From positions 1-64,000 of the forward strand of contig JASLMV010000007.1 of assembly GCA_030746435.1 (NCBI GenBank): a stretch of 64,000 bases of DNA, written 5' to 3'. The notes beneath the pieces were generated by a model. That model did not search any database. It saw only the letters and a list, made by a program, of their open reading frames with translations, and was not told the origin of the DNA. Positions within the stretch are counted from its first letter, which is position 1, and every line of letters begins with the position of its first letter. Below, piece by piece: positions 40,478 through 62,393 of the stretch. The DNA is from Gammaproteobacteria bacterium (lineage in GTDB: Bacteria > Pseudomonadota > Gammaproteobacteria > Steroidobacterales > GCA-2729495). The position numbers and the translations under genes were made by a program.

Positions 40478-41671
40478 TCAAGCCGTAATTGCTTCGACGT
40501 CAGCCCCGGCCGGTGCGTCTGCCTGGCTATGAAAAATGAGCTGGAGGCCGCCGCCGAACCCGATAATGTCCCCATCGTTAAGCTTGTGGTCACGCCGGAT
40601 ACGCTTGCCGTTGACGTACGTGCCGTTATAGCTGTTGTAGTCCTGCACAAACAACTCGCCCTCATGCTCATCGATAAATGCATGTCGGCGACTGATGTGC
40701 GGGTGGCGGAGTTGCAGACTGGTCGTTGCTGACCGCCCCAGAAAGAAGGGCAGTTCACTAATCGGAACCCAGGACTCCTTCTTGCTCGTATCGGTTTTTA
40801 ACAACCAGCCTCTGGGTGTATCCGTCCCCCCATTTTCGGTCAGGGTTTGAACCGTCGATGTAGGCACCTGCCAGCGTAACTCCTGGGCCGCATTGTCGAC
40901 GTGTTCGATATCGACCTTCTTGGCCTTATCAACCCAGGCCGCTGTGAATGCCATCTCGCAGAGTGTATTAACCATCCGGGGCGTGCCCGAGGTATAGGCA
41001 TAGACCTGCTCAATGGCTTTGTCGGTCATTATTTTTTTTACATTGCCGCCGGCAACTTCGAGCCGGCGCGCCAGGTACTCACTGGTTTCTTTCTCGTTCA
41101 GTGGAAGAATGTGCTGTCGGATCCGTGTGCGCTGGCTTAACTGTTCGAGTTCGGCTGAGTCGATCATTCTGTTCAGTTTGGGTTGACCCAGCAGGACGAT
41201 GCTCACGAGTCCGGACAGGTCGAGTTCCTGGCACGACAGCAACCGCAGTTCTTCGAGAGCCTTTTTAGACAGGTTCTGGGCCTCATCGATAAGGATCGCC
41301 ACCTGTTTACCCGCTTCCCTCTGTTTACGGAAGAAGTCCTTGAGTTGTTTCAGCAGGTAGACCTTGTTCTTCTTGTAGGACTCGATCTTGAACTCCAGCA
41401 GGATATTCTGCAGAAGTTCAGTAGGGCTAAGTGTCGTATGGGTGAGGCGTGCAATAACAACATCCCTCGGCAGATCATCGAGTATCTGGTTAAGCAGGGT
41501 GGTTTTTCCAACCCCGATATCGCCTGAGATAACCACGAAGTTGTCGCGGTTGGTCAGGGCGAACTCAATGTTGGCAAGTGCCTTCGCATGCTGGGGACTC
41601 AGGTACAGAAACCTGTGATCCGGAGAGCTTTCAAATGGTCTGCAATCGAGTTTGAAATGTTCTAGATACAT
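40478..41671 (-). CDS. ExeA-type AAA ATPase fused to an FHA domain
   Basis: A protein of 397 residues. Residues 1-270 are an ExeA/GspA-like ATPase: MYLEHFKLDCRPFESSPDHR, Walker A GDIGVGKTTLLN (50-61), Walker B ILIDEAQNLS (127-136), sensor region SGTPRMVNTLC. Residues 300-385 are a forkhead-associated domain (FLGRSATTSLQLRH, HISRRHAFIDE, YNSYNGTYVNGKRI), which binds phosphothreonine. ExeA relatives lacking FHA occur in polysaccharide export and exosortase loci; the fusion suggests control of export by Ser/Thr kinases. It lies divergent from the O-antigen ligase gene. Confidence 0.85.
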   Translation of the reverse strand: MYLEHFKLDCRPFESSPDHRFLYLSPQHAKALANIEFALTNRDNFVVISGDIGVGKTTLLNQILDDLPRDVVIARLTHTTLSPTELLQNILLEFKIESYKKNKVYLLKQLKDFFRKQREAGKQVAILIDEAQNLSKKALEELRLLSCQELDLSGLVSIVLLGQPKLNRMIDSAELEQLSQRTRIRQHILPLNEKETSEYLARRLEVAGGNVKKIMTDKAIEQVYAYTSGTPRMVNTLCEMAFTAAWVDKAKKVDIEHVDNAAQELRWQVPTSTVQTLTENGGTDTPRGWLLKTDTSKKESWVPISELPFFLGRSATTSLQLRHPHISRRHAFIDEHEGELFVQDYNSYNGTYVNGKRIRRDHKLNDGDIIGFGGGLQLIFHSQADAPAGADVEAITA

Positions 41672-42085: not shown

Positions 42086-43405
42086 ATGACAATCATAAGT
42101 ACAAACAAGTGGGCCCCGCCTTTCTATTTGTTGACAGCGTACTTGTTGGTCGTACTGTTGCGGCCACACGAGTACGAGCTTAGTCCGCTTATCGATGTGC
42201 CGGTACTGCCGGTACTTATGCTTGCCGGTTTCGTTGCCTGGTTTCTGTACGGCCGGCGTGATTTCGAAGCCCCGCAATATTATCTTGCGCCGCTGTTGCT
42301 GGCAGTTATGTGTATATCCATGATCGCCAGTGACTGGGCCGGTGGTGCGGTGTTGGTGTTTCGCAATAACCTGCCGTCTATCGGCCTGTTTTTTCTGATC
42401 GCCTGTACTGCAGATTCTGCACCACGCACAAGGTTGCTGCTAAAAATTATAGTCCTGGCCGCAACGGTAATGGCCTGGCATGGCATTCTGCAGGTTGAGT
42501 CGGGCACCGGCTGGAGCGGGGCGGAGTTGCTGGCGGGTCGGATAACCTACGTAGGAATATTCAACGACCCTAACGACCTGGGCATGCTTTTTATTGCATC
42601 GCTGCCTGTCCTTATATTTCTCTACAACGATGCCCGTTTTATCTTATGGCGACTTATTCTGGTCGCCTCGTTCGTGTCGATTATCTATGCGATCTATCTG
42701 ACTAATTCGCGGGGCACCGTTATCGGACTGGCTGCTACGGCCGGGGTTTATTTCTGGTCACGATTCGGTCTGTTGCGCACTGCAGTTCTTGGGGCGGTTC
42801 TGGGCCCGCTGGCATTTATTCTGGCGCCGTCGCGATTCAGGGACATGGCTGAGGCCGGCACGCTGGACGATTCCGCTCTGTTTCGGTTTGAGGCCTGGTA
42901 CGAGGGTTTCAATATGGCCCGACTGGAGCCTTTTTTCGGTGTCGGGGTCGACCGGTTCAGTGAACATTTTTTCATGACGGCGCATAATTCTTTCGTGGTT
43001 GCGCTGGCCGAGCTGGGTTTTATCGGCGCTTTCGTCTGGACCGCCTTTCTGGGGCTCAGCCTGTATATGATGTACCGGTTTCAGCGAGCAGAAGTCCCTG
43101 ACGACATCCTTGAGAATCCGGGCGAAATAGCCGCATATCTCAATCAGCAGAAGATTGCCAGGGCATTGATGTTTTCGCTGGTTGCTTTCTGTTCAGCAGG
43201 GCTTTTCCTCAGCCGTTCCTATGACCTTACTTTATTTATCTGGTGCGGTCTTGCTGTCGCTCACTATCAGAATTGCAGGCGGCGCTGGCCAGAAACAACC
43301 GAAGTGATCGGGTTAAAAGGTAATATCACCAAGGTTATAGCTTTCTGGATATTTACCCTGGTTATTTCTTATCTGGGTATGAAAGTAGGTTTGTCTCTGG
43401 CCTAG
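42086..43405 (+). CDS. O-antigen ligase / Wzy-type polymerase
   Basis: A protein of 439 residues with ten or more hydrophobic segments. The ligase-type periplasmic loop and helix AHNSFVVALAELGFIGAFVW with its HN and Glu is the hallmark of the O-antigen ligase / Wzy family, preceded by TNSRGTVIGLAA and FFGVGVDRFSEHF. It joins polysaccharide units or attaches them to an acceptor on the periplasmic face. There is no obvious Shine-Dalgarno. The next gene follows after 31 bases in the same direction. Confidence 0.85.
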   Translation: MTIISTNKWAPPFYLLTAYLLVVLLRPHEYELSPLIDVPVLPVLMLAGFVAWFLYGRRDFEAPQYYLAPLLLAVMCISMIASDWAGGAVLVFRNNLPSIGLFFLIACTADSAPRTRLLLKIIVLAATVMAWHGILQVESGTGWSGAELLAGRITYVGIFNDPNDLGMLFIASLPVLIFLYNDARFILWRLILVASFVSIIYAIYLTNSRGTVIGLAATAGVYFWSRFGLLRTAVLGAVLGPLAFILAPSRFRDMAEAGTLDDSALFRFEAWYEGFNMARLEPFFGVGVDRFSEHFFMTAHNSFVVALAELGFIGAFVWTAFLGLSLYMMYRFQRAEVPDDILENPGEIAAYLNQQKIARALMFSLVAFCSAGLFLSRSYDLTLFIWCGLAVAHYQNCRRRWPETTEVIGLKGNITKVIAFWIFTLVISYLGMKVGLSLA

Positions 43406-43436: not shown

Positions 43437-44624
43437 ATGCGCATACTAGCTTTTAGCAATCTGTATCCAAACTCGTGCGAGCCACTGCGAGCACGTTTTA
43501 ATCATCTGCAGTTCGCTGCACTGAACGATCTTGCCGGTGTGGACGTCACGGTAATCAGCCCGATAGAGCTGGCCCGGCGAGTGCAATACACCGGTTCCGG
43601 GAAAGGCTGGGGGCCGCGTGGCAGCCACCGGTGGGAAGAACTTGAAGTACGCTATCCAACGGCCTGGTTGATACCGAAAATACTGCGTTTCCTGAATGGT
43701 TTCCTGATGGCCATCTCGGTATTGCCGGCGTGGCTGCGGCAGAGGCACAATCCGCCAGATGTCGTGTTCTCAACGTGGGCATTTCCTGATGGTTATGCAG
43801 CCGTAATGCTGGGGCGGCTGTTTGGTTTGCCGGTATACGTCAAGGTGCATGGAACGGATGTTGCCCAGTTGGTGGGGCGCAGAACAATCAGACGGACGCT
43901 TACCGTTCGCGCTCTGACAAGAGCAACAGGCGTCATCACGGTCAGTAATTACCTGCGTGACCGGCTTATCTACTGCGGCGTACCCGCCGAGCAGATTCAC
44001 ACCGTGTACAACGGCATCGACCGGCAGAAGTTTCGTCCGCAGGACCAGGATGACTGCCGCCGCAGGCTTGGGTTGCAGCATTCCGGCGCTGTCGGGCTGT
44101 TTGTCGGTAACCTCGTCGGGGTCAAGGGTCTTGACGATCTGCTCGACGCATTGACTCCCGCGTTGTGCAGTAAGTTCAACCTGGCGTTCTATATCATCGG
44201 TGCGGGTCCGCTGGAGGGAAAGCTGCGCGAGCGGGTTCGGGAAGCGGGGATGGAGTCAGCGATCCATTTTGTGGGGCAGGTGGAGCACACGGCCCTGGCC
44301 GACTGGATGAATGCCGCAGATTTTCTTTGTCTTCCCAGCCACCATGAAGGGCTGCCCAATGTATTGCTCGAGAGCCTGGCCTGCGGGCTGCCTGTCGTAG
44401 CGACCGCTGTCGGCGGCGTGCCGGAAATAATCGATGACTCTAACGGCCGGCTGACCCTTCCCGGTGACCCGCTGGCGCTGACCACAGCAATGGCTTCGGT
44501 GCTGGAGCGCAAACCGGCCGGGACCGCAAATTCATCAACGGTCAATGCAGGCGGATGGAGCGATAATGCAGCAACCCTGGGACGGCTGTTCGCGGAAGAT
44601 AGCGGGGGAAGCTCACGGTCATGA
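43437..44624 (+). CDS. Family 4 glycosyltransferase
   Basis: A protein of 395 residues with the two Rossmann domains of GT-B enzymes. The N-terminal domain has FSNLYPNSCEPLRARFNHLQ and VKVHGTDVAQLVG; the C-terminal domain has GLFVGNLVGVKGLDDLLDAL and the donor-binding E-x7-E signature in PSHHEGLPNVLLESLACGLP followed by VGGVPEII. It transfers a sugar from a nucleotide donor in the cytoplasm, sugar unknown. Its stop overlaps the GT2 start by four bases. Confidence 0.9.
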   Translation: MRILAFSNLYPNSCEPLRARFNHLQFAALNDLAGVDVTVISPIELARRVQYTGSGKGWGPRGSHRWEELEVRYPTAWLIPKILRFLNGFLMAISVLPAWLRQRHNPPDVVFSTWAFPDGYAAVMLGRLFGLPVYVKVHGTDVAQLVGRRTIRRTLTVRALTRATGVITVSNYLRDRLIYCGVPAEQIHTVYNGIDRQKFRPQDQDDCRRRLGLQHSGAVGLFVGNLVGVKGLDDLLDALTPALCSKFNLAFYIIGAGPLEGKLRERVREAGMESAIHFVGQVEHTALADWMNAADFLCLPSHHEGLPNVLLESLACGLPVVATAVGGVPEIIDDSNGRLTLPGDPLALTTAMASVLERKPAGTANSSTVNAGGWSDNAATLGRLFAEDSGGSSRS

Positions 44625-45589
44625 GTGCCTCATCCACCATCAGCGTCGTAATCCCGGCCTACAACGCAGAGGCTTTTGTCGTCGAAGCGGTCGAGAGTGC
44701 ATTTGCACAAACGGTCGCCCCGCTTGAAGTAATCGTTGTCAACGACGGCTCTACGGACAGGACGGAAGAACTATTACGTGGCTTCGGCGACCGCATCACA
44801 CTGATTTCCCAACAGAACAGCGGCGTAGCAAGGGCCAGGAATGCCGGTCTGGAAGTCGCCGTGGGCGAGTACGTCGCTTTTCTGGATTCGGATGACGCGT
44901 GGTTGCCGGATAAGACCGCAAAGCAACTGGACGTCATGCAAAGTTATCCTGATATGGCTGCCTTGGGTTCGGACTGTATTGAAGTGGACCCGGACGGACA
45001 GGTAATCCGCAAAGTCGTTTCGGAAGCCTACGGCAATACTTTCTGGATCAGCCATGAGCCGCCGCTGATCGACCGCTCGGATATAGGCGACAACCTGATG
45101 CGTAACACGCTGGGGTCGCCTTCGGGTCTGTTGGTGCGCCGTGCCTGCCTGGAAGAAGTGCAACTATTCGACGAATCGTTGGTGAACGGCAGCGAGGACT
45201 GGGACCTGTTTATTCGGCTGGCCCTGAAATTCAGGACAGCCGTCTACGCCGATCAGTTATTCCGGTACCGGATCACCGGTGAGGGTCTGTGTTCACCGAA
45301 AAATGCCGAGCGGTTGCTGAAGACCGACCTGATGGTCCTCGACAAGATATTTAACTCGGGGGACCTGGAGGTATCGTGGTGGCTGCGTCGCAAAGCCTAC
45401 GGCAACCGGTATTTCAGGAATTCCCAGGCCTTCATGGATAACTGGCAGTTTTCCAGATCGCGGTCCACGCTGCTGACCGCCATCGCTTACTGGCCCACAT
45501 TGCTGCTGCAAAGGGCCACTATATTTATGCTGATCGCCCTGGTCATGGGCGAGGGCTGGGTCAGGAAACGCCGCGCAGCCGGGGCTTGA
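44621..45589 (+). CDS. Family 2 glycosyltransferase
   Basis: A protein of 322 residues with a GT-A domain at the N-terminus: VVIPAYNAEAFVVEAVESAF, VVNDGSTDRTEELL, RARNAGLEVAVGEYVAFLDS-DD (the DxD). The rest is a helical C-terminal extension with a hydrophobic end (AYWPTLLLQRATIFMLIAL). It resembles rhamnosyl- or galactosyltransferases of surface polysaccharide loci. The start overlaps the GT4 stop (ATGA), so the pair is coupled. It converges on the epimerase gene. Confidence 0.9.
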   Translation: MSASSTISVVIPAYNAEAFVVEAVESAFAQTVAPLEVIVVNDGSTDRTEELLRGFGDRITLISQQNSGVARARNAGLEVAVGEYVAFLDSDDAWLPDKTAKQLDVMQSYPDMAALGSDCIEVDPDGQVIRKVVSEAYGNTFWISHEPPLIDRSDIGDNLMRNTLGSPSGLLVRRACLEEVQLFDESLVNGSEDWDLFIRLALKFRTAVYADQLFRYRITGEGLCSPKNAERLLKTDLMVLDKIFNSGDLEVSWWLRRKAYGNRYFRNSQAFMDNWQFSRSRSTLLTAIAYWPTLLLQRATIFMLIALVMGEGWVRKRRAAGA

Positions 45590-47805: not shown

Positions 47806-49110
47806 TTATTCCCCGCCGCCTGGTGCTGCTGCATCCGGAACGTCAATCCGGAGTTTAGCGGCGATGGTTTCGGCGGTCAGCTTGTTGCCGTAGGGCGTCA
47901 GATGACCCTGGTAGATCAGGCTCCATTCCTCGTCGGGTCTGGCCCGGAAAACATCGCTGAAATTGATGAAACCCGTGCCGGAGTCCGCAGCCCAGGCTTC
48001 CATCACCCGTTCGATTTCGGCGGGCTGCAGGCTTTCGGAATCTGCAATATAGCCGAGCAGGAACTTCGCGCCGACGGATTCCGATGTGCGCCGCGCCTCG
48101 GCCAGTATCGCGCTGGTTATTTTCCAGCGCTCCCATTCCTCAAGCGGGGGGTAAAGTTTAGTCGCGGTTATGATGTCCATCCAGGCATTGATAAGCAGCT
48201 TGCCGATCCAGAAGCGTGGTAACGAGACCTCCATCCGGCGAAACTCTTCGCGGGTCAGGACCGGTGAATTGAGCAGCACGAGCTGGTCGTTATCGAGCAG
48301 AAACTGTGGTTTGCCGTAATCGCGAAAACCCAGCACATTGCGGGTGATATTGCCTTCGAAGAAAACCAGCATCACAACATCAGGGCTGTAGGCAAGCCCC
48401 TCCCGCTGCAGGCGCAACAGCTGCTGGTCCGTTCCGAATCCGTGTACGCCGAGGTTAATGACCTCCGATCCGGACAGCAGGTTTTCGAGTTGGGCAGCGA
48501 AAGTATCCTCGTTGCGGACATCCTCTCCCCAGGTGAAGGAATCGCCGACAATAACGACGCGGAGAGAGTCCGGTGTTTTCTCCAGCGGGTACTCGCGGTC
48601 TGACCGCACCCCGCGCGAGTTGACACGGATATTGTCGGACTGATAGCCGGGCTTGGGTTTCCAGCCTACCAGCGGGTCATAAATATCAAAGGAAAACCCT
48701 TCCGGAGTAAGCGTATTAGCATCTGCCGACGCTTGGTTGGCCTGCCAGCGGAGTTGCCACCAGCCGTCTTCATCGTCACGAAACAGGTGCTGAGGGTCGA
48801 GTATAACCCGCACGGCTGCCTCGGCCAGCAACAGTGCGACGCCGGCGCCAATAACCAGTGCTACCAGCGCGATCTGCACCGATCTCGAATCTACGGGTGT
48901 CACGTGTGCTGCTCTAGCACGCACGATCAGAATGATACCCAGGACCAGGAGCAGGGCGTCGGCAGCAAGCACATAGGTTTTCTGGTCCAGGGTGCCATCG
49001 CGCACGAGACCGGATTCTATGAACCAGGGGTTCAGGAGCAGGCCGGCAAGTACAAGCAGTAATCCTGCGGCAACCTGCAGGCGGCTCAGTAGCGGCGCGA
49101 CATTGGACAT
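47806..49110 (-). CDS. Membrane protein with SGNH-hydrolase-like domain
   Basis: A protein of 434 residues from the ATG at 49110 (MSNVAPLLSRLQ). The N-terminal 110 residues have three hydrophobic helices; the remaining part is periplasmic and SGNH-like: VVIVGDSFTWGEDVRNEDTF with the nucleophile Ser, INLGVHGFGTDQQLL with block-II Gly, and near the end YQGHLTPYGNKLTAE with the His. This resembles AlgJ/AlgX-type and other acyl-esterase/transferase proteins of polysaccharide loci. It could add or remove acyl groups from the polymer in the periplasm. It is first in the three-gene minus-strand operon. Confidence 0.75.
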   Translation of the reverse strand: MSNVAPLLSRLQVAAGLLLVLAGLLLNPWFIESGLVRDGTLDQKTYVLAADALLLVLGIILIVRARAAHVTPVDSRSVQIALVALVIGAGVALLLAEAAVRVILDPQHLFRDDEDGWWQLRWQANQASADANTLTPEGFSFDIYDPLVGWKPKPGYQSDNIRVNSRGVRSDREYPLEKTPDSLRVVIVGDSFTWGEDVRNEDTFAAQLENLLSGSEVINLGVHGFGTDQQLLRLQREGLAYSPDVVMLVFFEGNITRNVLGFRDYGKPQFLLDNDQLVLLNSPVLTREEFRRMEVSLPRFWIGKLLINAWMDIITATKLYPPLEEWERWKITSAILAEARRTSESVGAKFLLGYIADSESLQPAEIERVMEAWAADSGTGFINFSDVFRARPDEEWSLIYQGHLTPYGNKLTAETIAAKLRIDVPDAAAPGGGE

Positions 49111-49284
49111 GACTTTATGGTGTTGAGATTCGGATGCGGGAGGGCAGGTTTTCACAAAAGTCTCGAGACAGTCAAATCACGGCGATTATGTAGTCTGCGT
49201 CTGACAGTGCCGCAGAGTCTGCTATGTTCGGTGGCTGGTGCTTGTTATGCTGCGTTTGCCGAAAAGAATATCCATGAAAGATCC

Positions 49285-50454: not shown

Positions 50455-53400
50455 TTATTCGTAGGTGGCGGTTGCGGTACTGCCGTCCAGTTCGAAGCTC
50501 AGCAAACCGCCGTCGTCTGTGACGATACCGGAGCCGGAGTCTTCACTTATCGTCAGGCTGACGCTGCCGCTATTGCTCACGGCCTGTATGCTGTAGCTCA
50601 CTTCGGGTTTCAGGCCAGCCAGCCAGATACGCCCGACGGTAGCCGGAAGGTTGACCGCCAGGTTGCCGGCGCCCGGCGTGTAGCGCAGGTCATCTTTAAG
50701 AAACAGCACCGCTTCACCGCCGATGACGGCACCCGCAAGCTGTGGCGTGTCTATGCCGGCCGGGTTCATAGCGACGAAACCGTCGGCATTGGATGCGCGC
50801 AGTACGCTAACCATGGCCAGTTGCTGTGCCGCCGTCCCCGGATCGATGTCGACCCGGTGGGTGTGGTAACCACCCGGGTAGTCGCCGGGTTGTGCGCCGG
50901 ATGCGCCGAGGTGCTCAAGCGACGAACTGGACGGTAAAACCGCCGCGATTTCGATGCGTTGCGAAACGTCGCCGAGGTTTGACGTTGCCGTAGCGGTACG
51001 GCCCGTAATCTGTGGCGCCATATCGATATGGAAACGCAGCTTGCGTGGCGGACTGCCTGCCGACGGATTGTTGTGCACCTGGTCGAAGATCACAACCGTG
51101 TCCGGCGTGTTCGATTCGTCACTTTTCAGCCAGACCAGTGAGCGCTGCACGAGGTCGTAGCCGGCGAAATTATCAAGGGCAGACGTGTAAGCGCCGCGCA
51201 GGTCGGAGGCCACGTAACTGTGCGCCGAATTGGAACTGGCCCGTACCACACGCTGGGTCTGCGCGGCGTTGTAGGAGTACTGCACCCGGTCATCGTGGAC
51301 CTGTAATTGCAAGGTATTCGCTCCACCACCGTTAGCGATCGCTCCCTGGTAACCGAAGGGCTCGTGCGTAATCCAGGCACCCCTTCTATAGAGCTGGAAG
51401 TGACCGGCATCGGCGTGATTGTGGTCGATACCGGACCAGCCGCCCGAGAACATCAGTTGCGAGGCATTCTCTGACCATGATGTACGGTCAAGCAGGATAT
51501 CCAGGCCGGAATCGAGGTTGGCGAGCGGCACATCCAGGCGGTAATCGCGTGGTGCCAGCGTGTCGGTATTGAAGAGCAGCAAAGGCAGGCTGCGTGCGTC
51601 GGCGCCCGATGGCGGGAAATGCCGCTCGAGCACAAATTGTGCCCAGCCCGCCTCGGTATGCAGACCGCTGATCTCGAGCAACCCGCGTAACCATGCATAG
51701 TTCTGCTGATCAAGCCTGGTGATCTCGTAACTGTTTGACTCGGCGTTCGGATAACCCTCGATGTCGCCGGCTGTATAAGTGCCGCCTTCCGTGGGTGTAA
51801 TGGCGTGCAGCGTGATCGACTGTAGCTGGTGACTCAGGTAGGGCGCATAACTCGTAATCGGGACCCCCGAGTTATGCAGCACCCAGAAGTTCTGGTACCA
51901 GTAACCCATCGTCGCGCCGTCATAGAAAACGCCGTCGGGATGCGTGCCGCCGCTCTGGGCGAAGAACCCTTCCGAGCGCCGCGCTTTGGGCAATTCGAAT
52001 CCGAACCAGCCTCGCAGGCCTGCATCCATGACAGCACACGAACGACTGGCCACGTCGCTGGATAACCCGCTGCTGCCGCAGGCGGTGAGCCCGTCGATGA
52101 GCATGTTACGCACACGACCCACGGTGTCGTCGGTGTCCACGAGTACCAGCGGTACATTGTTCAGCCGGTGCTCGTCCTGGAAAAGCGTGGCCAGCACAGC
52201 GCGTTCACGCTGCGCGGGTGACAACTCGTTCCATAACATGTCGAGGCACATACCGAGCTGTGCATCCTCGAACATATAGGTGAGCTCACTCATTAAGCCG
52301 CCTTCCCAGAAATCGACATTGCTGTCGAACAGCGTCAGTGCTGCGTTCCGGTAGCGCTCGTCGTCGGTAACCTGGTAAAGCAGGGCCGAGATGCTGCAAT
52401 AGAGGCGTGACTGGAATACCGATCCGGGGCTTGCCGCGGCCTGGAGGGCCCGGCCGCCGAGTTCATCGGCCCATTCCTGCCAGACATCGTCACCTGCGCT
52501 GTGGTGCCCGCGCAGTCGGTTAATAAGATCGTTGTTGGCATAAACGCGTGGATGCTGGCTGCCCAGGCTTATCTGCGGCGCGGACTGCGTGCGGAATGCC
52601 ACTACATTGCTCACCTCTCCTGACAGGCCGTCCCACGCGTCATGTACAACGACGGCATAGTAATCCGTGGCGGGATCCATATCGGTGATGATGAAAGGTT
52701 GTGCAAGGCTGTCGCCGTGGGGCTCGTATACCAACCGGTCCATGCTGTCGCCACGGTCGATCATTGCCTGCACCCCGTCGAGGCTGGTGGTCTCGGAGAT
52801 ATCCGTCGTCCAGGCCAGGGCTGCAGACCAGCCCCACTCGGTGGTTTGCGGCGAAGCAAAGCTGAACCAGGCGCCGTAAGGCGTGACGTGCTCAATACGC
52901 AGGTCGGTCACCGGGCCATTCAGTTGCGGCGGGGCAAAGCCGGGGTCGCAGGCGTTGCCGGTGCCGTCCGAATTGCTGTCCGCTTGTCCGGGGTTGTAAA
53001 TGTTCGGGCAGTTATCCGTGCCGGTTACGCCGTCACCGTCCGCGTCTGGGTGCCATTCGCTGCCCAGCGCCGATGCATTCGCCGGCGGGACAGGCGGAGG
53101 CGGTGGGGCCGGGTTGTCGTTCACGGGCACCGTCAATGTACGGCTGACCGAGCCGCCGGTGCCGGTGCACACGAGCCGGAATTTACTGGTCTCGAAGAGC
53201 GTACCCGTCTGTTCCTGTCCCTGGGTCGGGCGCGAGCCTTCCCACGCGTTGCTCGCGAGGCAGTCGGTTGCGTTCGTGGTGGACCAGATGATGGTTGCCG
53301 ATGACCCGGGCGTAACTTCCGCCGGATTGGCGACGATGGTCATCGTCGGTTTGGTCGTGGGAGAAGGTGGCGACGGCGGTACAGGGACACCCGGCGCAGT

Positions 53401-53526
53401 GGCGCCACCGGCGCCCTCGTCTTTGCCGGAGCTGCTGCTACCGCAGGCCGCGAGTACGAGCGTTAGTACTACAACGGCTGCCCGTCCCGCAATTGCCGGG
53501 AGGCAACTGGTCAGCGCCCGAGACAT
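50455..53526 (-). CDS. Heparinase II/III-like surface lipoprotein
   Basis: A protein of 1023 residues from the ATG at 53526; the frame continues upstream but without a signal peptide. Order: lipoprotein signal ending LAAC; Gly/Ser/Pro linker; one Ig-like repeat of the type found three times in the next gene (TIIWSTTNATDCLASNAWEG); a calcium-binding thrombospondin-3-like run (DADGDGVTGTDNCPNIYNPG); an FnIII-like segment; an (alpha/alpha) domain from about residue 300; and the heparinase II/III beta-sandwich with GWSGIDHNHADAGHFQLYRR. It should cleave acidic polysaccharide by elimination on the cell surface, perhaps trimming the organism's own polymer. Confidence 0.8.
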   Translation of the reverse strand: MSRALTSCLPAIAGRAAVVVLTLVLAACGSSSSGKDEGAGGATAPGVPVPPSPPSPTTKPTMTIVANPAEVTPGSSATIIWSTTNATDCLASNAWEGSRPTQGQEQTGTLFETSKFRLVCTGTGGSVSRTLTVPVNDNPAPPPPPVPPANASALGSEWHPDADGDGVTGTDNCPNIYNPGQADSNSDGTGNACDPGFAPPQLNGPVTDLRIEHVTPYGAWFSFASPQTTEWGWSAALAWTTDISETTSLDGVQAMIDRGDSMDRLVYEPHGDSLAQPFIITDMDPATDYYAVVVHDAWDGLSGEVSNVVAFRTQSAPQISLGSQHPRVYANNDLINRLRGHHSAGDDVWQEWADELGGRALQAAASPGSVFQSRLYCSISALLYQVTDDERYRNAALTLFDSNVDFWEGGLMSELTYMFEDAQLGMCLDMLWNELSPAQRERAVLATLFQDEHRLNNVPLVLVDTDDTVGRVRNMLIDGLTACGSSGLSSDVASRSCAVMDAGLRGWFGFELPKARRSEGFFAQSGGTHPDGVFYDGATMGYWYQNFWVLHNSGVPITSYAPYLSHQLQSITLHAITPTEGGTYTAGDIEGYPNAESNSYEITRLDQQNYAWLRGLLEISGLHTEAGWAQFVLERHFPPSGADARSLPLLLFNTDTLAPRDYRLDVPLANLDSGLDILLDRTSWSENASQLMFSGGWSGIDHNHADAGHFQLYRRGAWITHEPFGYQGAIANGGGANTLQLQVHDDRVQYSYNAAQTQRVVRASSNSAHSYVASDLRGAYTSALDNFAGYDLVQRSLVWLKSDESNTPDTVVIFDQVHNNPSAGSPPRKLRFHIDMAPQITGRTATATSNLGDVSQRIEIAAVLPSSSSLEHLGASGAQPGDYPGGYHTHRVDIDPGTAAQQLAMVSVLRASNADGFVAMNPAGIDTPQLAGAVIGGEAVLFLKDDLRYTPGAGNLAVNLPATVGRIWLAGLKPEVSYSIQAVSNSGSVSLTISEDSGSGIVTDDGGLLSFELDGSTATATYE

Positions 53527-53587
53527 CCCTGTGTCGACCACCACTAGACCCCAAACTCCGTACGCAACGACTGCACTATACCCGAGA

Positions 53588-55684
53588 TCACTCGAGTCTC
53601 CAGCGCACATAGTCGAAACTGTAGAAATAGTTCTGGTTGAACTGCTTGCCACCGCAGCTGAGGCAGGCACCGCGGACGCCGCCCGCGAATATCGCATCGC
53701 CCTGGATGCGCGCGGTTTCGTTGCCCGTCTGCTTGTAAACCCAGGCAAACGCAGGTGCGATCAGCATGTTCAGGTCCGGTGCCGGGGAGACGACGTCGGG
53801 GGACTGGCCCTCTGAGGTCGAGTAGCGGTCTGCGTAACGGAAGGCCTCGGCACTTTCATTCCACAGGCGCTGGCCGACGTACTGGGCAGGCGTGCCGCCC
53901 TGGGCGCGCACTACCGCTTCGGCAAACAGCCAGTTGGTGAAATCACTGAGTGCCGCTACGATCGTCGGCCACGAATTGTCGTCGGTCGGATCTTCCCAGT
54001 AAGCGTTCGGATCGCGGCCGTTCTCGACTTCCCACTCATAGAAATCGATCAGCGCCTTCATCGTCAGTCCCGTCATGAAGGGCTGCATCTGGTGGTAACC
54101 GGTATCCGGCTGATAACCCCGCTGTGCGTAGCTGATATTGCGCCATTGTTCCATCTGGCGCCCGATCCAGCGTATGTAGGTCTGCAGGCGGGCCTCGTTT
54201 ACGCCGAAGGTGTTATGCATCTTGCGCGCCAGGCCGGCCCGTTCGGATACGACGTGCGCAACGGTGATGTAAGCCAGCTCACGCGACATATTGGTGCAGG
54301 ACCCGCAGTAGTCACCCTGGAATTCGACCGGCCGGGCAAAAGCGCCAAGCTCGGTAATAGACTCGAAGTCCTGCAGCGTGAACGGCGAATTGATCGGTGC
54401 CGGCGATGCCGCGCTCGCGGTCGGATTGCCGCGCAGGAAGTCCTGGAGCATGCCCAGTGAGAAGCGATGGTAACCCGACATATAGTAGTTCGGCCGGTCG
54501 TAACGCTCTTCGTACCAGGTCTGGCGGGCCCAGCCGGCATAAGTCAGCCAGGGCTCGGTCTGACCGGTGTAGTCCATGATCCGCAAATGCACGTAGAGCC
54601 CGTCGTAATAGGCATGGTTCATGCGGCTGCTGTAACCGTAGGTGCCCGGATCCATCAACGGCGCAATCTGCTGGCCGTAGGTGATCATGTTCTGCTCCCA
54701 CTGGGCGAATTCCGGTATGCCGTTGTCGCCGCTGTCGACACTGACGGTGACCGAGCGCGAAACATCGCCGCCCGGGCCGCTGCAGTCCAGGCTGAAGGTG
54801 CTGGACTCGGTGAGCGAGCCGGTAGATTCGCTGTCATCCAGGTTCTTGTCCCCCGACCAGTCGCCGCTCGCTGTACAGGATGTCGCATCGGTGGAATCCC
54901 AGGTCAGCGTGGAAGATCCGTTGGCGCTTACGACTGTCGGGGATGCCGTCAGCGTCAGTGCCGGGGGAGGCGGCGGAACGCCGACGGACACGGTCACAGA
55001 CCGGTTCACGCTGCCGCCGTCGCCGGTACACTCAAGGTTGAACGCACTGGTTGCAGTCAGCGGCGGTGTATTGAAGGAACCCTGCGTAGCGAGTGAACCT
55101 GACCAGGCGCCGCTGGCTACGCATGTATTGGCGTGGTTGGATAACCAGTCGATCTTGCTCGTGCCATTCATGTCCACCGAGGTGGGCGATGCCCACATTG
55201 CCAGCGTCGGCGCATCAACAGGCGGTTCTTCTACGCTTACATTGATTGTCCGGCTGGTCTGACCACCGGGACCCGTGCAAACGAGCCGGAACTGGCTGTC
55301 TTCGCTAAGTGCGTCGGATTGCTCTATGCCCTGTGGCGGCCTGGTGCCCGACCAGTCCTGGCTAGCATCGCAGGATGTAGCATCCGTGGTGGCCCAGCGC
55401 AGCGTGGTCGTCGAACCGGGTTCTACGGTCGACGGGGTAGCCGTAAACAGCGTCAGCTGGGGCTTATTCGCATCGGGATCAGGCGGCGGGTCATCGGAGC
55501 CTCCGCCCGCGCCACCGGCCGCCGATGACGACGTGCTTTCACCGCCGCACGCGGCGAGTATCAGCGCGAGCGCAAGGGTGGATATAAGTCTGAATGTCCG
55601 GCCAGAGCTTTGGCCAAGAGTAAATCCGTTTAAAACCGGCAGCCGCGGTACCGCGCTGCGAATCCTTCGCACAGGAAAATCCAT
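53588..55684 (-). CDS. Surface lipoprotein: three Ig-like repeats plus unrecognised C-terminal domain
   Basis: A protein of 698 residues. Signal peptide ends in the lipobox LAAC. Three Ig-like repeats of about 80 residues follow, each with a Cys, a Trp and a second Cys in the pattern TSCxASxxWSG ... FxLxCxGxGG and ending SRSVTVSV. The last 370 residues (from FAQWEQNMITYGQQIAP) form a domain shared with the protein at 56033; both contain RIMDYTGQTEPWLTYAGWAR or a near match, GYHRFSLGML, and an ending FDYVRWR. I do not recognise it; helical repeats and many Trp/Tyr suggest a carbohydrate-active (alpha/alpha) barrel. A CGSC and a CLSC could form disulfides. Confidence 0.75.
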   Translation of the reverse strand: MDFPVRRIRSAVPRLPVLNGFTLGQSSGRTFRLISTLALALILAACGGESTSSSAAGGAGGGSDDPPPDPDANKPQLTLFTATPSTVEPGSTTTLRWATTDATSCDASQDWSGTRPPQGIEQSDALSEDSQFRLVCTGPGGQTSRTINVSVEEPPVDAPTLAMWASPTSVDMNGTSKIDWLSNHANTCVASGAWSGSLATQGSFNTPPLTATSAFNLECTGDGGSVNRSVTVSVGVPPPPPALTLTASPTVVSANGSSTLTWDSTDATSCTASGDWSGDKNLDDSESTGSLTESSTFSLDCSGPGGDVSRSVTVSVDSGDNGIPEFAQWEQNMITYGQQIAPLMDPGTYGYSSRMNHAYYDGLYVHLRIMDYTGQTEPWLTYAGWARQTWYEERYDRPNYYMSGYHRFSLGMLQDFLRGNPTASAASPAPINSPFTLQDFESITELGAFARPVEFQGDYCGSCTNMSRELAYITVAHVVSERAGLARKMHNTFGVNEARLQTYIRWIGRQMEQWRNISYAQRGYQPDTGYHQMQPFMTGLTMKALIDFYEWEVENGRDPNAYWEDPTDDNSWPTIVAALSDFTNWLFAEAVVRAQGGTPAQYVGQRLWNESAEAFRYADRYSTSEGQSPDVVSPAPDLNMLIAPAFAWVYKQTGNETARIQGDAIFAGGVRGACLSCGGKQFNQNYFYSFDYVRWRLE

Positions 55685-56032
55685 TTTTAACGCGCCTCAA
55701 CAACAATCAACGACGGTAAAACCGTCTGTGAATCGCTGGCTCTCTCCACATGCAAATCCGGTCTAACCCATAAAAAACCGGAATCGAGGGCCGCGATCTA
55801 ACCCGTGACAAAAGTCTCACTAATATGACTTCCGATTTGTGACGGAGGTCTCAATTAGTCGGGTTGGTGCAGATATTGGAGCCGCAGTTTAACGATAATT
55901 CCCGTTATGACAATTAGCCGTAGGCCGAGGAAAATCAATGCGTTGCGCCGCAATAACTGGACGGCATTTGTTTGTTTTTTACCAACAGGATTGATATTGC
56001 TAAGTGTGCCGCGTGGCTTAATTGCGACAAAG
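55685..56032. other. Intergenic region between the two paralogous lipoprotein genes
   Basis: 348 bases. The part next to 55684 should carry the promoter of the downstream lipoprotein gene (minus strand). I see no gene, no convincing terminator and no repeat; AT content is higher than in the flanking genes. Confidence 0.4.
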
Positions 56033-57361
56033 TTATTCGCCGGAACGCCAGCGCACGTAATCGAAGCCGTAAAAATATTGTTGATTAAACTGTTTACCTC
56101 CCCGATCGGGGGAGCCGTTGCGCACGCCTGCTGCAAATATTGCATCACCCTGGGTCCTGAATCGTGCGTTGCCGGTCTGCCGCCAGACCCAGGCGTAGGC
56201 TGGTGCAATGAGCAGGTTCAGGTCCGGAGCGGCCTCGACGACATCCGAGGTCTCACCCTCGTGGGGTGTGTAACGGTCTGCGTAGCGAAAGCCTGCAAAG
56301 GCTTCGTCCCACATTCGCTCGCCGACGTACATTTTCGGAGTGCCACCCCCGGCCCGCACCGTGGCGTCCGAGTACAACCAGTTACAGAAGTCCCCTAATG
56401 CCTCGACTATGGTCGGCCATGAACCGTCTGGCGTCGGGTCTTCCCAATAGGCGTCGGGGTCGCGGCCGTTCTCGACCTCCCATTCGTAGAAATCGATCAG
56501 CGCCTTCATGGTCAGGCCCGTCATGAAGGGCTGCATATAGTGGTAGCTCTCATCGGGTTGATATCCACGCTTCTCGTAACTGGCGTTGCGCCATTGTTCC
56601 AGGTGCCGGCCAGCCCAGCGCACGTAGGTTTGCAACCTGGGTTCACTGCCGGTACCGAAATCATTATGGTTTACCCGCGGCAAGCCCGCGCGTTCGGAGA
56701 CCACGGTGGCCACAATGCTGTAAGCGAGTTCGCGGGAAATATTGCTGCACGAACCGCAATACTCTTCGACGAAATAGAACGGTTGCGCAAACGAACCCAG
56801 GTCGCGAATGCGCACGAAATCATCCGGGGTCAGGGGTGTGTTGCCGGGTACCGGATGTTCAGCGTCTGCCGTCGGATGGCCGCGCCGGAAATCTTCCAGC
56901 ATGCCGAGCGAAAAACGGTGGTAACCGACCATGTTGTATTCGGGCCTGCCGTAGCGTTCTTCTATCCACGCATGCCTTGCCCAGCCGGCATAGGTTAGCC
57001 ACGGTTCCGTTTCGCCCGTGTAATCCATGATCCGGTAATAAACATACAGCGCATCGTAGTAGGCGTTGTTCTGTCGTTTGCCTGCATCCGATTCCGCCGG
57101 GTTGAGGGTCGGGCCCCACTTTTTGCCGTACTTGACCATCTGCTTTTCCCAGCGGCGGAGTTCCGGCACCGGCAAACCGGAAGTCTGTACATCCGTTGGG
57201 GCTGTCGCTTCGGGTGCTGCGTAGCTGACCGGGACGGCGGTTACCGTGGTCGCGCTGTTGTTTTCTGCTTCTGGTTTGACAGCCTCACCACACGCCACCG
57301 GCAGCGCCAGTGTGATGCTGATGCAAAGGGGCAGCAGGATTGACCGGATAATCTTGCGCAT
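56033..57361 (-). CDS. Lipoprotein with the same unrecognised domain, compact form
   Basis: A protein of 442 residues. Signal MRKIIRSILLPLCISITLAL ends in a lipobox-like PVAC. After a short linker (no Ig repeats) comes the domain shared with the preceding lipoprotein: RRWEKQMVKYGKKWGP, YYDALYVYYRIMDYTGETEP, GYHRFSLGMLEDFRRG, MQPFMTGLTMKALIDFYEWE, and an ending GFDYVRWR. Two copies of one family side by side, one bare and one on Ig spacers, fit enzymes or binders acting at different distances from the membrane. Function unknown; a role in handling the exopolysaccharide is inferred from context. Confidence 0.7.
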   Translation of the reverse strand: MRKIIRSILLPLCISITLALPVACGEAVKPEAENNSATTVTAVPVSYAAPEATAPTDVQTSGLPVPELRRWEKQMVKYGKKWGPTLNPAESDAGKRQNNAYYDALYVYYRIMDYTGETEPWLTYAGWARHAWIEERYGRPEYNMVGYHRFSLGMLEDFRRGHPTADAEHPVPGNTPLTPDDFVRIRDLGSFAQPFYFVEEYCGSCSNISRELAYSIVATVVSERAGLPRVNHNDFGTGSEPRLQTYVRWAGRHLEQWRNASYEKRGYQPDESYHYMQPFMTGLTMKALIDFYEWEVENGRDPDAYWEDPTPDGSWPTIVEALGDFCNWLYSDATVRAGGGTPKMYVGERMWDEAFAGFRYADRYTPHEGETSDVVEAAPDLNLLIAPAYAWVWRQTGNARFRTQGDAIFAAGVRNGSPDRGGKQFNQQYFYGFDYVRWRSGE

Positions 57362-57995: not shown

Positions 57996-60900
57996 ATGAG
58001 TTCTGGTAATCGCGTTACTGACAGTTATTCCCTGTCACCCATCCAGCAGGGCATGTTGTTCCATCATCTGTCCGGCGCTCATTCCGGGGTGGATATCGAG
58101 CAGATCGTTTGCCGTTTTGACGAAGCGATCGATACAGATGTGTTTGCCGCCGCATGGCAGTCTATCGCTGCCCGGCATCCGGCTTTGCGAACGGCATTTC
58201 GCTGGGAGGGCGTAGACCAGCCTGTACAGGATGTACATACCGATATTGAAGTGCCGTTCGTAAGCCACGACTGGTGCGGCCAGCCGGCCGATGTGCAGCA
58301 ACGTCAGCTCGATGAGTTTCTTGCCAGTGATCGGGCAGCCGGTTTTGAACTTGAGCAGCCGCCACTGGTTCGCCTGACCTTTTTCCGCACCGGCGATACC
58401 AGCGGCATCCTGATATGGACTTTCCACCACATACTTCTGGACGGGCGATCTTTCCCGGTGGTTCTGCGGGAAGTCTTCGCAGCTTACGCGGCACAGGTTG
58501 CCGGTCAGACTGTCGAGCTACCGGCAATTGCCGCCTACCAGGAGCACATAAACTGGTTGGAAAAACGTGATACCGAGGGCGATGCACAATTCTGGCGTGA
58601 ACTCCTGCAGGGAGTCAGTGGCCCGACACCATTACCGATGCTCGCCCAGGCGGAAGATGACACGGAGGCTGCCATCGACCGTGTGGAAATCGAAGTTCGC
58701 CTCGAACCCGAGCTGAGTGATGCGCTGAAGAAACTTGCCGGTGACCAGAAGGCCTCGCTCAACACCGTACTGCAGACTGCATGGGCTGTCCTGCTTAGTC
58801 GCTATACTGGTGAACGGCAGGTTGTGTTCGGTTCGACCCGCGCCGGCCGCCACACCATTGACGGCGCCAATGATGTCGTCGGCATGTTTATCAATACGCT
58901 CCCCGTACCTGTGACGGTAGACCCGGACACGACGCCGGCTGATTTGATAAAGGTCCTGCGTCAGCAGGAAGTCGACGTCCGTCCTTACGAGCACACCGCG
59001 CTGGTCGATATCCATCAGTGGAGCGAGGTGCCGGCCACGGCGCCCCTGTTCGATACGCTCGTGATTTACGACCGCGCCGCACTGGACCAGGTGTTGAAGG
59101 CGGAGGGTGGCGACTGGGCGAACCGGCACTTCAAGTTGCTGGATAAGACCAATTTACCGCTGACCCTTTATGCCTATGGCGAAGACCGGCTGTTGTTAAA
59201 CCTTGTCTACGACCGCAATCGCCTGGACGATGTTTCGATGGGCCGGCTGCTTGGCCACCTGCAGTCGATCCTTGCGGCGATGGCCTCCGATGCGTCACTC
59301 CCGGTCGGTAACATCTCGTTGCTAACGGATGCCGAGCGGCACCGTCAGTTGATCGACTGGAATGCAACCAGCGAGGACTATCAGCGGGAATCCCGCATCC
59401 ACGATCTGATCGGCCAGCAGGTTGCCAGCCAGCCGGACAAACTCGCTGTTGCGGCAAACGGGCAGGAACTCAGTTACCGGGAACTCGACGAAACTTCCAA
59501 TCGACTGGCACGTCATCTGCAGTCGCTGGGCGTAGGTCCGGACGTACTCGTCGGCATACATATGAACAGGTCGGTCGATATGCTGGCCGGCCTCCTTGCA
59601 ATTATGAAAGCAGGCGGGGCCTATTTGCCCCTCGATCCCGATTTTCCGGCCGACCGGTTGGCCTTCATGCTCGAAGATGCCAATGCGCCGTTGCTCCTGA
59701 CCGAGTCGAAACTGAAAGGTACGCTGCCGGCAGGCGACTACCAGACAGTGGTCATGGACGGCGATCGGGCAGCATGGGAGGCTAACGATGCTGCGGCAAT
59801 TCAGGATAAGGCCACCGCGGACAACCTCGCCTACGTAATCTATACGTCGGGTTCGACCGGCAAGCCGAAGGGCGTCATGGTCGAACACGGCAATGTCGTC
59901 AATTTCTTCATCGGCATGGATCAGTCCATCGCGCGCGGCGAACGGGATGCCTGGCTCGCGGTTACCAGCCTATCGTTCGATATTTCTGTGCTGGAACTCC
60001 TGTGGACCCTGGCACGCGGCTTCACGGTCGTGCTTGCGGCAGACATCGATGCAGAACAGGACCAGGGTGACGTGGTATTCGACCAGGCGATCGATTTCAG
60101 CCTGTTTTATTTCGCCAGTGATGACGGTGGTCATGGTCGTGGCAAGTACAGGTTGTTACTCGAAGGTGCCAGGTTCGCCGACAGGAACGGTTTTGTTGCG
60201 GTCTGGACGCCCGAACGTCATTTCCACGCTTTCGGCGGCATATTCCCGAACCCATCGGTTGCAGGTGCCGCCGTTGCGGCCATAACTGAAAACCTCCAGA
60301 TCCGCGCGGGCAGTTGCGTGTTGCCATTGCACAATCCCCTGCGAGTGGTGGAAGAGTGGTCGGTGGTAGACAACCTGTCCAACGGCGGGGTCGGTATAGG
60401 CTTTGCCTCCGGCTGGCAGCCGAATGACTTCGTGCTGGCGCCCGAGAACTACCCTGAACGCCAGGCCGTCATGTTCGAACACATCGAAACCGTGCGCAAA
60501 CTCTGGCGCGGCGAGAAGGTCAAGTTCAGGAATCCCAAGGGCGACATGGTCGAGATTCAGACCATGCCGCGCCCGGTGCAAAAAGAACTGCCTGTGTGGG
60601 TTACCACGGCCGGCAGTATCGAAACTTATATAAGTGCGGGCAAATCAGGGTCGAACGTGCTGACCCATTTGCTCGGCCAGGCTGTCGAAGACCTCGAGGA
60701 AAAGATCAGGGCTTACCGGCAGGCCTGGAAAGAAGCCGGCCATCCCGGCCAGGGCAGCGTGACGCTTATGCTGCACACCTTCGTCGGTAACGATAACGAC
60801 GAGGTCCGCGAAATCGTCCGCCAGCCGATGAAGAACTACCTCGGCAGCGCGCTAAGTCTCGTGAAAGGTTTCGCGGATAGCTGGAGTGCTTTCAAGAAAG

Positions 60901-62393
60901 ATGCTGCAGTAGACGTCAAACTCGAAAGTAACGCGCTCGATCAGCTTAGCGATGAAGATATGGACAGCCTGCTGGACTTTTCTTTCGAGCGCTATTTCGA
61001 AACGAGCAGTCTGTACGGTACGCCCGAAAAGTGTCTCAAGCTGATCAAGGCAGTACAGAGTGCCGGTGTCGATGAAATATCCTGTCTGATCGATTTCGGT
61101 GTCGATCACGACCTGGTTCTGGAGCACCTGGATAACCTCAACGAAGTTCGCCTGGCTGCTCAACCGGCTGCTGCGTCACCGGTCGCCGGTGAATCGCTTC
61201 CGGAGCAGATCAGCAAGTATGACATTAGCCACATGCAGTGCACGCCCTCTATGGCGCGTATGCTGCTGCTCAACGATGAAACCCGAACGGCGCTCGCGAA
61301 AGTCGATCACATATTGATCGGCGGTGAGGCCCTGCCGGTCGATCTCACCAAGGAGGTCCGTGAAGTCACGCAGGCGTCCATTACTAATATGTACGGTCCA
61401 ACCGAGACGACTATCTGGTCGTCTACCCAGTTGGTTAACGGTGCGGACCAGGCGGGTACGGTCGCGATCGGTAAACCTATCGCCAACACAACGATGTATG
61501 TCCTCGACGATCAACAACAGCCGGTCCCCGTGGGTATCGTCGGCGAACTGTATATAGGCGGTGATGGTGTCGTGCGTGGTTACCACGACCGACCCGAGCT
61601 GACTGCCGAGCGTTTCGTAGCCAATCCTTTCGATACCGAAGGTAAATCGCGGCTGTATCGCACGGGCGACCTGGTGCGCTATCGCGAAGACGGCGTACTC
61701 GAGTTTATCGGCCGCGTCGACCACCAGGTCAAGGTCCGTGGTTTCCGTATCGAGCTGGGTGAAATCGAGGCCGCGTTACTGGAATACGAAGGGTTAAGCG
61801 AAGCTGTGGTCATAGCACGCGAAGATGTGCCCGGCGACAAGCGCCTCGTGGCCTACATGGTGAGTGATAAGGAAATAGAACAAGCGGATCTGCGTGCGCA
61901 TTTGTCCGGTAGTTTGCCCGACTACATGGTGCCGTCGAATTTCATCGCTATGGACGCATTTCCGTTGACGCCGAACCGGAAGATCGACCGCAAGGCACTG
62001 CCTTCGCCTGCCGAAGTCGGTGTCAGCCGTGATGAAGCGTTGGCGCCGCCGTCCAACGAGATGGAAAAGGCAGTTGCCGCGGTGTGGGAAGAGGTGCTGA
62101 ACCTTCCCGACATCAGTGTGCAGGACAATTTCTTCAAGCTGGGCGGTCATTCAATACTTGCCGTCAAATTACACAGCCTGCTGCGCAAGTTGTCCGACCG
62201 TAAACTGATGGTGACCGATATATTCCGTTATCCGACGATCAAGGCTTACGCCGAGTTCCTGTCGGGTGGCGACGACAGCGGTGAACAAGTGCAGAAGAGC
62301 ATGGATCGAGGTGCCAGTCGCCGCGCCGCATTACAGCGGCGCCGTGGCAAGCGCACCGCCGGTTCGGCCTCGACGGGGGATGCCGCCCGGTGA
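57996..62393 (+). CDS. NRPS module C-A(with inserted luciferase-like monooxygenase)-PCP, predicted glycine
   Basis: A protein of 1465 residues from the ATG at 57996 (GAGGG upstream). Condensation domain about 1-440 with HHILLDG at 144-150. Adenylation begins near 460: A3 YVIYTSGSTGKPKG near 612, A4 FDISVLELL (Asp662). Residues about 690-1055 are a luciferase-like flavin monooxygenase (FSLFYFASDDGGHGRGKYRL, WTPERHFHAFGGIFPNP), after which A5-A10 resume (NMYGPTETTIWSS, YRTGDLVR, NRKIDRKAL). PCP with LGGHS, Ser1386. Aligning the pocket to GrsA gives DILQLGMIWK, a glycine-type code. The insert probably alpha-hydroxylates the bound glycine. No thioesterase or epimerase. Overlaps the PKS start. Confidence 0.9.
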   Translation: MSSGNRVTDSYSLSPIQQGMLFHHLSGAHSGVDIEQIVCRFDEAIDTDVFAAAWQSIAARHPALRTAFRWEGVDQPVQDVHTDIEVPFVSHDWCGQPADVQQRQLDEFLASDRAAGFELEQPPLVRLTFFRTGDTSGILIWTFHHILLDGRSFPVVLREVFAAYAAQVAGQTVELPAIAAYQEHINWLEKRDTEGDAQFWRELLQGVSGPTPLPMLAQAEDDTEAAIDRVEIEVRLEPELSDALKKLAGDQKASLNTVLQTAWAVLLSRYTGERQVVFGSTRAGRHTIDGANDVVGMFINTLPVPVTVDPDTTPADLIKVLRQQEVDVRPYEHTALVDIHQWSEVPATAPLFDTLVIYDRAALDQVLKAEGGDWANRHFKLLDKTNLPLTLYAYGEDRLLLNLVYDRNRLDDVSMGRLLGHLQSILAAMASDASLPVGNISLLTDAERHRQLIDWNATSEDYQRESRIHDLIGQQVASQPDKLAVAANGQELSYRELDETSNRLARHLQSLGVGPDVLVGIHMNRSVDMLAGLLAIMKAGGAYLPLDPDFPADRLAFMLEDANAPLLLTESKLKGTLPAGDYQTVVMDGDRAAWEANDAAAIQDKATADNLAYVIYTSGSTGKPKGVMVEHGNVVNFFIGMDQSIARGERDAWLAVTSLSFDISVLELLWTLARGFTVVLAADIDAEQDQGDVVFDQAIDFSLFYFASDDGGHGRGKYRLLLEGARFADRNGFVAVWTPERHFHAFGGIFPNPSVAGAAVAAITENLQIRAGSCVLPLHNPLRVVEEWSVVDNLSNGGVGIGFASGWQPNDFVLAPENYPERQAVMFEHIETVRKLWRGEKVKFRNPKGDMVEIQTMPRPVQKELPVWVTTAGSIETYISAGKSGSNVLTHLLGQAVEDLEEKIRAYRQAWKEAGHPGQGSVTLMLHTFVGNDNDEVREIVRQPMKNYLGSALSLVKGFADSWSAFKKDAAVDVKLESNALDQLSDEDMDSLLDFSFERYFETSSLYGTPEKCLKLIKAVQSAGVDEISCLIDFGVDHDLVLEHLDNLNEVRLAAQPAAASPVAGESLPEQISKYDISHMQCTPSMARMLLLNDETRTALAKVDHILIGGEALPVDLTKEVREVTQASITNMYGPTETTIWSSTQLVNGADQAGTVAIGKPIANTTMYVLDDQQQPVPVGIVGELYIGGDGVVRGYHDRPELTAERFVANPFDTEGKSRLYRTGDLVRYREDGVLEFIGRVDHQVKVRGFRIELGEIEAALLEYEGLSEAVVIAREDVPGDKRLVAYMVSDKEIEQADLRAHLSGSLPDYMVPSNFIAMDAFPLTPNRKIDRKALPSPAEVGVSRDEALAPPSNEMEKAVAAVWEEVLNLPDISVQDNFFKLGGHSILAVKLHSLLRKLSDRKLMVTDIFRYPTIKAYAEFLSGGDDSGEQVQKSMDRGASRRAALQRRRGKRTAGSASTGDAAR

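Follow-up and report, generated by a model that had tools for sequence, protein, structure and literature searches.

A glycine adenylation domain with an embedded monooxygenase, paired with a reducing polyketide synthase in a gammaproteobacterial exopolysaccharide region

Glycine-activating adenylation (A) domains of nonribosomal peptide synthetases (NRPSs) that carry an embedded flavin-dependent monooxygenase (MOx) are already known. In the myxothiazol and melithiazol assembly lines, the MOx lies between motifs a4 and a5. There the carbinolamide is cleaved to an amide plus a glyoxylyl thioester, whereas solanimycin B retains it and chain growth continues (PMC10204066). In a survey of 2051 A domains, all four glycine domains with a MOx had exactly the code DILQLGMIWK (PMC12283262). 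Here we describe such a domain in a 64,000-nucleotide stretch (the window) of a Gammaproteobacteria bacterium genome (assembly GCA_030746435.1; 2.43 Mb, 96.8% complete). The window is positions 1-64000 of a contig of 109,654 bases (C36). The domain belongs to an NRPS gene that is directly followed by a polyketide synthase (PKS) gene. Our reading, to which we give roughly even odds (about 0.5), is that the two modules together make a small acyl group destined for a polysaccharide or glycoconjugate of the cell surface. Judged by the open-access literature, the domain as such is not new; the novelty lies in the reducing PKS module that stands downstream of it and in the repeated occurrence of this pair at polysaccharide loci in two classes of proteobacteria. 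That literature held no description of a system joining an exosortase to an NRPS or PKS, or an alphaproteobacterial exopolysaccharide (EPS) to a hybrid NRPS-PKS, which is a weak indication of novelty.

The NRPS gene is a plus-strand open reading frame of 1465 residues. Its start codon, an ATG at 57996, is preceded by an AGAGGG-like ribosome site. Pfam finds a Condensation domain, two AMP-binding halves flanking a Bac_luciferase match, AMP-binding_C and PP-binding. This gives the order condensation (C), A(Gly), MOx and peptidyl carrier (PCP). The PKS contains ketosynthase (KS), acyltransferase (AT), ketoreductase (KR) and dehydratase (DH) domains and a second PCP. The features of the line are as follows.

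57996-62393, plus strand: NRPS gene, C-A(Gly)-MOx-PCP, 1465 residues (open reading frame with ribosome site; Pfam and NCBIfam domains)
58017-59342, plus strand: condensation domain, HHILLDG intact (PF00668)
59415-60053, plus strand: N-terminal part of the A domain (A1-A4), pocket residues D662, I663 and L666 (PF00501; code)
60096-61151, plus strand: TIGR04020 luciferase-like FMN monooxygenase between A4 and A5 (TIGR04020; PuwE 6ket, 400 bits; fold)
61191-62003, plus strand: C-terminal part of the A domain (A5-A10), pocket residues Q L G M I W K (Pfam; code)
62070-62261, plus strand: peptidyl carrier domain, DNFFKLGGHS (PF00550)
62390-68119 of the contig (62390-64000, the KS, in the window), plus strand: PKS gene, KS-AT-KR-DH-(AMP-binding_C remnant)-PCP, 1909 residues (domain matches)

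The inserted MOx is bounded by A4 (FDISVLE, with Asp662) and A5 (NMYGPTE, at about 1131-1137). An initial annotation, made from the window alone, had placed a monooxygenase of about 365 residues between these motifs. Motif positions, the Pfam split and the TIGR04020 match all agree with that placement, at about 350-365 residues. A chance origin of the fusion was considered and dismissed, since the match to a curated family is full-length and 27 relatives have the insertion at this same A4-A5 place.

The pocket points to glycine. Motif positions give DILQLGMIWK as the ten-residue code, and an alignment of 15 sequences served to read nine of these residues a second time. The initial annotation had noted nine of ten positions in common with the glycine code DILQLGLIWK; against the surveyed Gly-MOx code (PMC12283262) the agreement is 10/10, the likeness to MtaG and MelG being drawn from published descriptions and not from their sequences. 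Among the 15 sequences of this alignment a single code position differs, the one corresponding to GrsA 299, where L, M, F or Y occurs. An AlphaFold model covering 59361-61895 (mean pLDDT 81.0, pTM 0.55) places the A core on GrsA (1amu) with Z 51.6 over 395 residues at 1.9 A. The aligned range spans the insert, which is looped out of the core, and the pocket keeps its register. Because pTM is low, the mutual orientation of core and insert in the model is untrustworthy. The pocket references were this superposition and the 15-sequence alignment; LgrA module 2, whose pocket reads differently when aligned, was left unused. As predicted from sequence, loading of glycine on the PCP is strongly supported.

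The MOx itself looks intact. It matches TIGR04020, the MupA/Atu3671 family with which the initial annotation had proposed a comparison, over model positions 1-341 of 341 at 514.5-519 bits, about 270 bits above the curated cut-off of 244.45. The motifs ERHFH, RAGS, ASGW and HLLGQ are kept across the 15 aligned proteins, which are about 50-59% identical to the window protein in the A-MOx region. Superposed on the monooxygenase domain of PuwE (6ket), the insert gives a TM score of 0.87 by target length. Conservation predicts that it binds FMN, and hydroxylation of the glycyl alpha-carbon is a well-supported prediction for this family. We consider it very unlikely that the MOx is inactive or otherwise employed, so that the module would just incorporate N-acylglycine and yield a 4-amino-crotonate unit. 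Homologous C-A-PCP genes that have no MOx and are followed by KS-AT do occur (loci L041, L042, L045 and L046), and catalysis is deduced from homology here. Against this stand the margin over the TIGR04020 cut-off and the four motifs, kept as expected under functional selection. In a MOx tree, the window row falls inside a weakly supported, open clade of 29 rows with both C-type lines and lines starting with a formyltransferase-like domain (formyl-type), a placement that leaves its exact position loose. The same genome has a second, stand-alone TIGR04020 monooxygenase (G000:C5:48057-49094; L163:9540-10640; 449 bits); the 20 kb examined around it showed no NRPS or PKS domains.

The contig beyond the window end supplied the rest of the cluster, including the full PKS. 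The two genes overlap by 4 bases, and the last bases of the NRPS gene, GTGA, double as the PKS start. Aligned with seven relatives, the PKS has its catalytic motifs: the KS Cys/His/His, AT GHSMG, KR GGLGG with Tyr/Asn, the DH His and Asp and the PCP Ser. The complete module, the overlap and the conserved motifs support the hand-over of the glycine-derived unit to a PKS that the initial annotation had suggested. Its further proposal, a use different from that in myxothiazol, needs qualifying, since the solanimycin B line also retains alpha-hydroxyglycine and extends the chain (PMC10204066). Just before the last PCP, at PKS residues 1740-1813, lies a remnant of an AMP-binding C-terminal subdomain, and the carrier looks as if it were NRPS-derived by recombination.

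A myxothiazol-like course would use hydroxylation only to cleave the C-N bond. The N-acyl group would be lost in the form of a primary amide, which is formamide for formyl-type lines, and the glyoxylyl thioester would start the PKS, giving a nitrogen-free unit of the 4-oxo-2-butenoyl type. The A4-A5 insertion and the glycine code are of the myxothiazol/melithiazol type (PMC10204066, PMC11342130, PMC12283262), and the PKS is directly downstream. The known modules, however, end in a thioesterase (TE) that frees glyoxylate, whereas here a KS comes next, and the carbinolamide survives in solanimycin B (PMC10204066). We regard this course as unlikely; it is a variant of one step of the scheme below and compatible with a polysaccharide role.

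The claim that the module opens the line was not borne out, as the N-terminal condensation domain has an intact HHILLDG and an acyl donor is thus expected; an N-terminal formyltransferase, the arrangement of an initiation module, occurs only in relatives from other classes. The upstream genes of ten relatives, listed with the condensation subtype (starter or elongating) in mind, included no obvious acyl donor. The canonical XrtA acyl ligase, TIGR03098, was rejected as a candidate donor, having no match over its cut-off anywhere in the genome.

The pairing recurs. In an even set of 299 Pseudomonadota genomes, TIGR04020 was found over its cut-off in 14, and ten of these 14, the window genome included, have A-MOx-PCP beside a homologous KS-AT-KR-DH-PCP gene. 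The nine other paired genomes belong to classes different from that of the window. None of their nine loci has the C-domain HHxxxD motif, and both of the two tested by Pfam (L152 and L158) have an N-terminal formyltransferase in its place. Six of the nine loci have a glycosyltransferase family 2 (GT2) gene separating the PKS from the NRPS, and in six a phosphopantetheinyl transferase (PPTase)-type gene follows. Further relatives lie on plasmids of Ruegeria sp. SCSIO 43209, Ruegeria conchae, Parasedimentitalea marina, Paracoccus marcusii, Paracoccus liaowanqingii, Aminobacter sp. MSH1 and Shinella zoogloeoides. All of these loci sit amid glycosyltransferases, flippases, sugar transferases or export genes; that of R. 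conchae has the exosortase gene xrtD and rfbABCD. In Phaeobacter inhibens, a PKS (Inhi_1972) and an NRPS (Inhi_1974) have locus tags two apart (PMC4062626) and may represent the same operon type. C-A-MOx-PCP relatives, at 49-53% identity, come from gammaproteobacterial, Myxococcota and Gemmatimonadales metagenome-assembled genomes. In two (L036 and L039) a homologous PKS that ends in a TE directly follows. Two gammaproteobacterial genomes with no PKS neighbour beside the gene instead have a conserved protein of 724-730 residues, 71% identical between them, after C-A-MOx-PCP (L031:4833-7007 and L033:1432-3624). A pair of GMC oxidoreductase and short-chain dehydrogenase/reductase genes lies beside a flippase in polysaccharide loci of Paracoccus and a same-genus relative (L170, L167 and L181), and perhaps serves a common unusual sugar.

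The polysaccharide setting exceeds chance. Markers were drawn from the window region and the plasmid loci and are thus independent of the nine test loci, and the operon's own genes were masked. Twenty randomly chosen segments of 20 kb served as controls; eight of the nine test genomes supplied 19 of them, and genome G489 supplied one. At least one marker lay within 20 kb in 8/9 loci and 1/20 random segments (Fisher p 1.8e-5), and at least two in 5/9 and 0/20 (p 1.1e-3). For MOx genes in other settings, a marker was found at 1/9 loci. On the C-type side, the PKS homologues of three gammaproteobacterial genomes (G183, G043 and G177) lie with flippase and glycosyltransferase genes; those of G043 are on contigs other than that of its C-A-MOx-PCP gene, among polysaccharide genes.

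The window locus has the same character. These features lie upstream of the line.

39275-40399, minus strand: glycosyltransferase family 2 (PF00535)
40478-41671, minus strand: XrtA/PEP-CTERM-associated ATPase-like protein with FHA domain (TIGR03015, 250 bits, below the cut-off of 324.5)
42086-43405, plus strand: putative O-antigen/O-glycosylation ligase-like membrane protein (TIGR03097, 68.5 bits, below cut-off)
43437-44624, plus strand: glycosyltransferase (GT4-like)
44621-45589, plus strand: glycosyltransferase family 2 (PF00535)
47806-49155, minus strand: GDSL-like acylhydrolase (PF13472)

Downstream, the PKS is followed by two alpha/beta hydrolases (contig 68152-68937 and 68930-69823). Both belong distantly to TIGR03101/TIGR03100, hydrolase families associated with exosortase A, and score below cut-off. 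The next genes encode an asparagine-synthase-like amidotransferase (TIGR03108, also below cut-off), a glycosyltransferase resembling TIGR04063, a Wzx-like flippase and a GDSL protein. A TIGR03013 sugar transferase (534 bits, cut-off 393) and a TIGR03007 chain-length determinant (348 bits, cut-off 279) are also downstream, followed by a TIGR03018-like kinase. Several further XrtA-associated families match at the locus only below cut-off. With TIGR03013 and TIGR03007 over cut-off nearby and an exosortase (PF09721) elsewhere in the genome, on contig C35, this is an XrtA-type EPS locus. EPS genes stand on both sides of the NRPS-PKS pair, which places the line inside an exopolysaccharide region.

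The line could instead make a free small metabolite (a lipopeptide-like signal, toxin or antibiotic) with the polysaccharide genes as mere neighbours, for example co-transferred. MOx-bearing NRPS lines do occur in ordinary metabolite clusters of Streptomyces and Nostoc and in a Gloeocapsopsis siderophore region, solanimycin is such a product (PMC10204066), and some C-type relatives are free of markers in the sequence covered. We find this account possible but on the unlikely side, given the marker counts, the glycosyltransferase gene within the operon in six loci and a setting that is shared by two classes of proteobacteria and by different plasmids. Because the recurrent pairs mostly sit among polysaccharide genes, we prefer a role in supplying a polysaccharide acyl group. 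Some observations weigh against this preference. Seven C-type loci (L031, L032, L033, L036, L038, L039 and L040) are marker-free in the sequence covered; several of the marker-free contigs are short or stop close to the gene, L040 contains just part of it, and the set of tblastn markers has low sensitivity. Pfam does identify glycosyltransferase, deacetylase or epimerase genes at two of these loci, L032 and L036. A domain scan of the whole 1909-residue PKS found no TE, which its relatives have, and the neighbouring hydrolases read GLRLG, with Arg at the usual nucleophile place, and GLCSG, with Cys. Co-location is also no proof of attachment to a sugar. The missing TE and the neighbouring hydrolases together suggest release in trans.

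We propose the following scheme. The A domain would load glycine on the PCP (step 1). The C domain would N-acylate it from an acyl donor; in the sister lines the formyltransferase-like domain would N-formylate it (step 2). The embedded FMN monooxygenase would then hydroxylate the glycyl alpha-carbon, by family resemblance and precedent (step 3). The carbinolamide could be kept, as in solanimycin B, or split into an amide and glyoxylyl-PCP, as in myxothiazol (step 4). The PKS would take over the two-carbon thioester, add one malonyl-type unit, and reduce and dehydrate it. The expected thioester would be N-acyl-4-amino-4-hydroxy-crotonyl if the carbinolamide is kept, or 4-oxo-crotonyl if it is cleaved. 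Finally, a TE in the relatives, and probably the neighbouring alpha/beta hydrolases here, would release the unit or transfer it to a sugar (step 5). The identity of the product is a prediction, and attachment to a polysaccharide sugar is suggested by gene neighbourhood.

More broadly, we suspect, a shade less firmly, that widespread miniature NRPS-PKS lines acylate bacterial surface polysaccharides, with an alpha-hydroxyglycine or glyoxylyl thioester as the PKS building block. If so, glycine-MOx domains of Pseudomonadota would serve mainly to modify polysaccharides and not to terminate antibiotic chains. In roseobacters, paracocci and rhizobia, some of the cryptic NRPS-PKS content would decorate the cell surface or matrix; assembly-line enzymes are usually thought to yield free metabolites. 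Alpha-hydroxyglycine would gain another fate, transfer to a ketosynthase.

Other features of the genome are recorded here. Just upstream of the NRPS gene (50455-57361, minus strand) are three proteins of 1097, 698 and 442 residues with nearly no Pfam matches. The latter two share a C-terminal domain by eye, and all three are possibly polysaccharide-acting enzymes. An HvfC-family maturation protein for ribosomally synthesized and post-translationally modified peptides (287 bits, cut-off 142) lies near the polysaccharide region (L010:9589-10374; contig C36:86589-87374, minus strand). Another contig (C11, 97158-203846) holds 23 of the genome's 24 condensation-domain matches, in open frames of up to 7252 residues, and is a very large NRPS region for a 2.43 Mb genome. 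A viral-contig scan gave no match.

Among known systems, the Gly-MOx modules of myxothiazol and melithiazol are close to the window module. The resemblance that the initial annotation had noted is supported by the glycine code and by the A4-A5 insertion (PMC10204066). Both have a glycine A domain with a MOx between A4 and A5 (PMC10204066, PMC11342130). There, however, the module is terminal, with a TE and a terminal amide; here there is no TE and a complete PKS module comes next. Module 4 of SolF (solanimycin, Dickeya solani) likewise combines a glycine A domain with a flavin monooxygenase, and alpha-hydroxyglycine is kept and the chain extended. Its insertion lies between A8 and A9, within a large antifungal line, and a serine NRPS module follows (PMC10204066).

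PuwE has the nearest solved relative of the insert (PDB 6ket, about 50% identity). That MOx is located outside any A domain, between a PKS module with an aminotransferase and an NRPS module, and its presumed substrate for hydroxylation is a fatty acyl chain (PMC4219810). The corallorazine-like clusters of Serratia and Pseudomonas have a MOx within a glycine A domain (A2) but are bimodular NRPSs, for which we found no PKS extension described (PMC11342130). The operons of Ruegeria, Paracoccus, Aminobacter and Shinella, formyltransferase-A-MOx-PCP with KS-AT-KR-DH-PCP-TE, share the A-MOx-PCP core (about 50-56% identity), the PKS order and the EPS setting. They differ from the window line in a formyltransferase-like N-terminus in place of the C domain, a TE at the PKS end and, often, a GT2 gene between the two.

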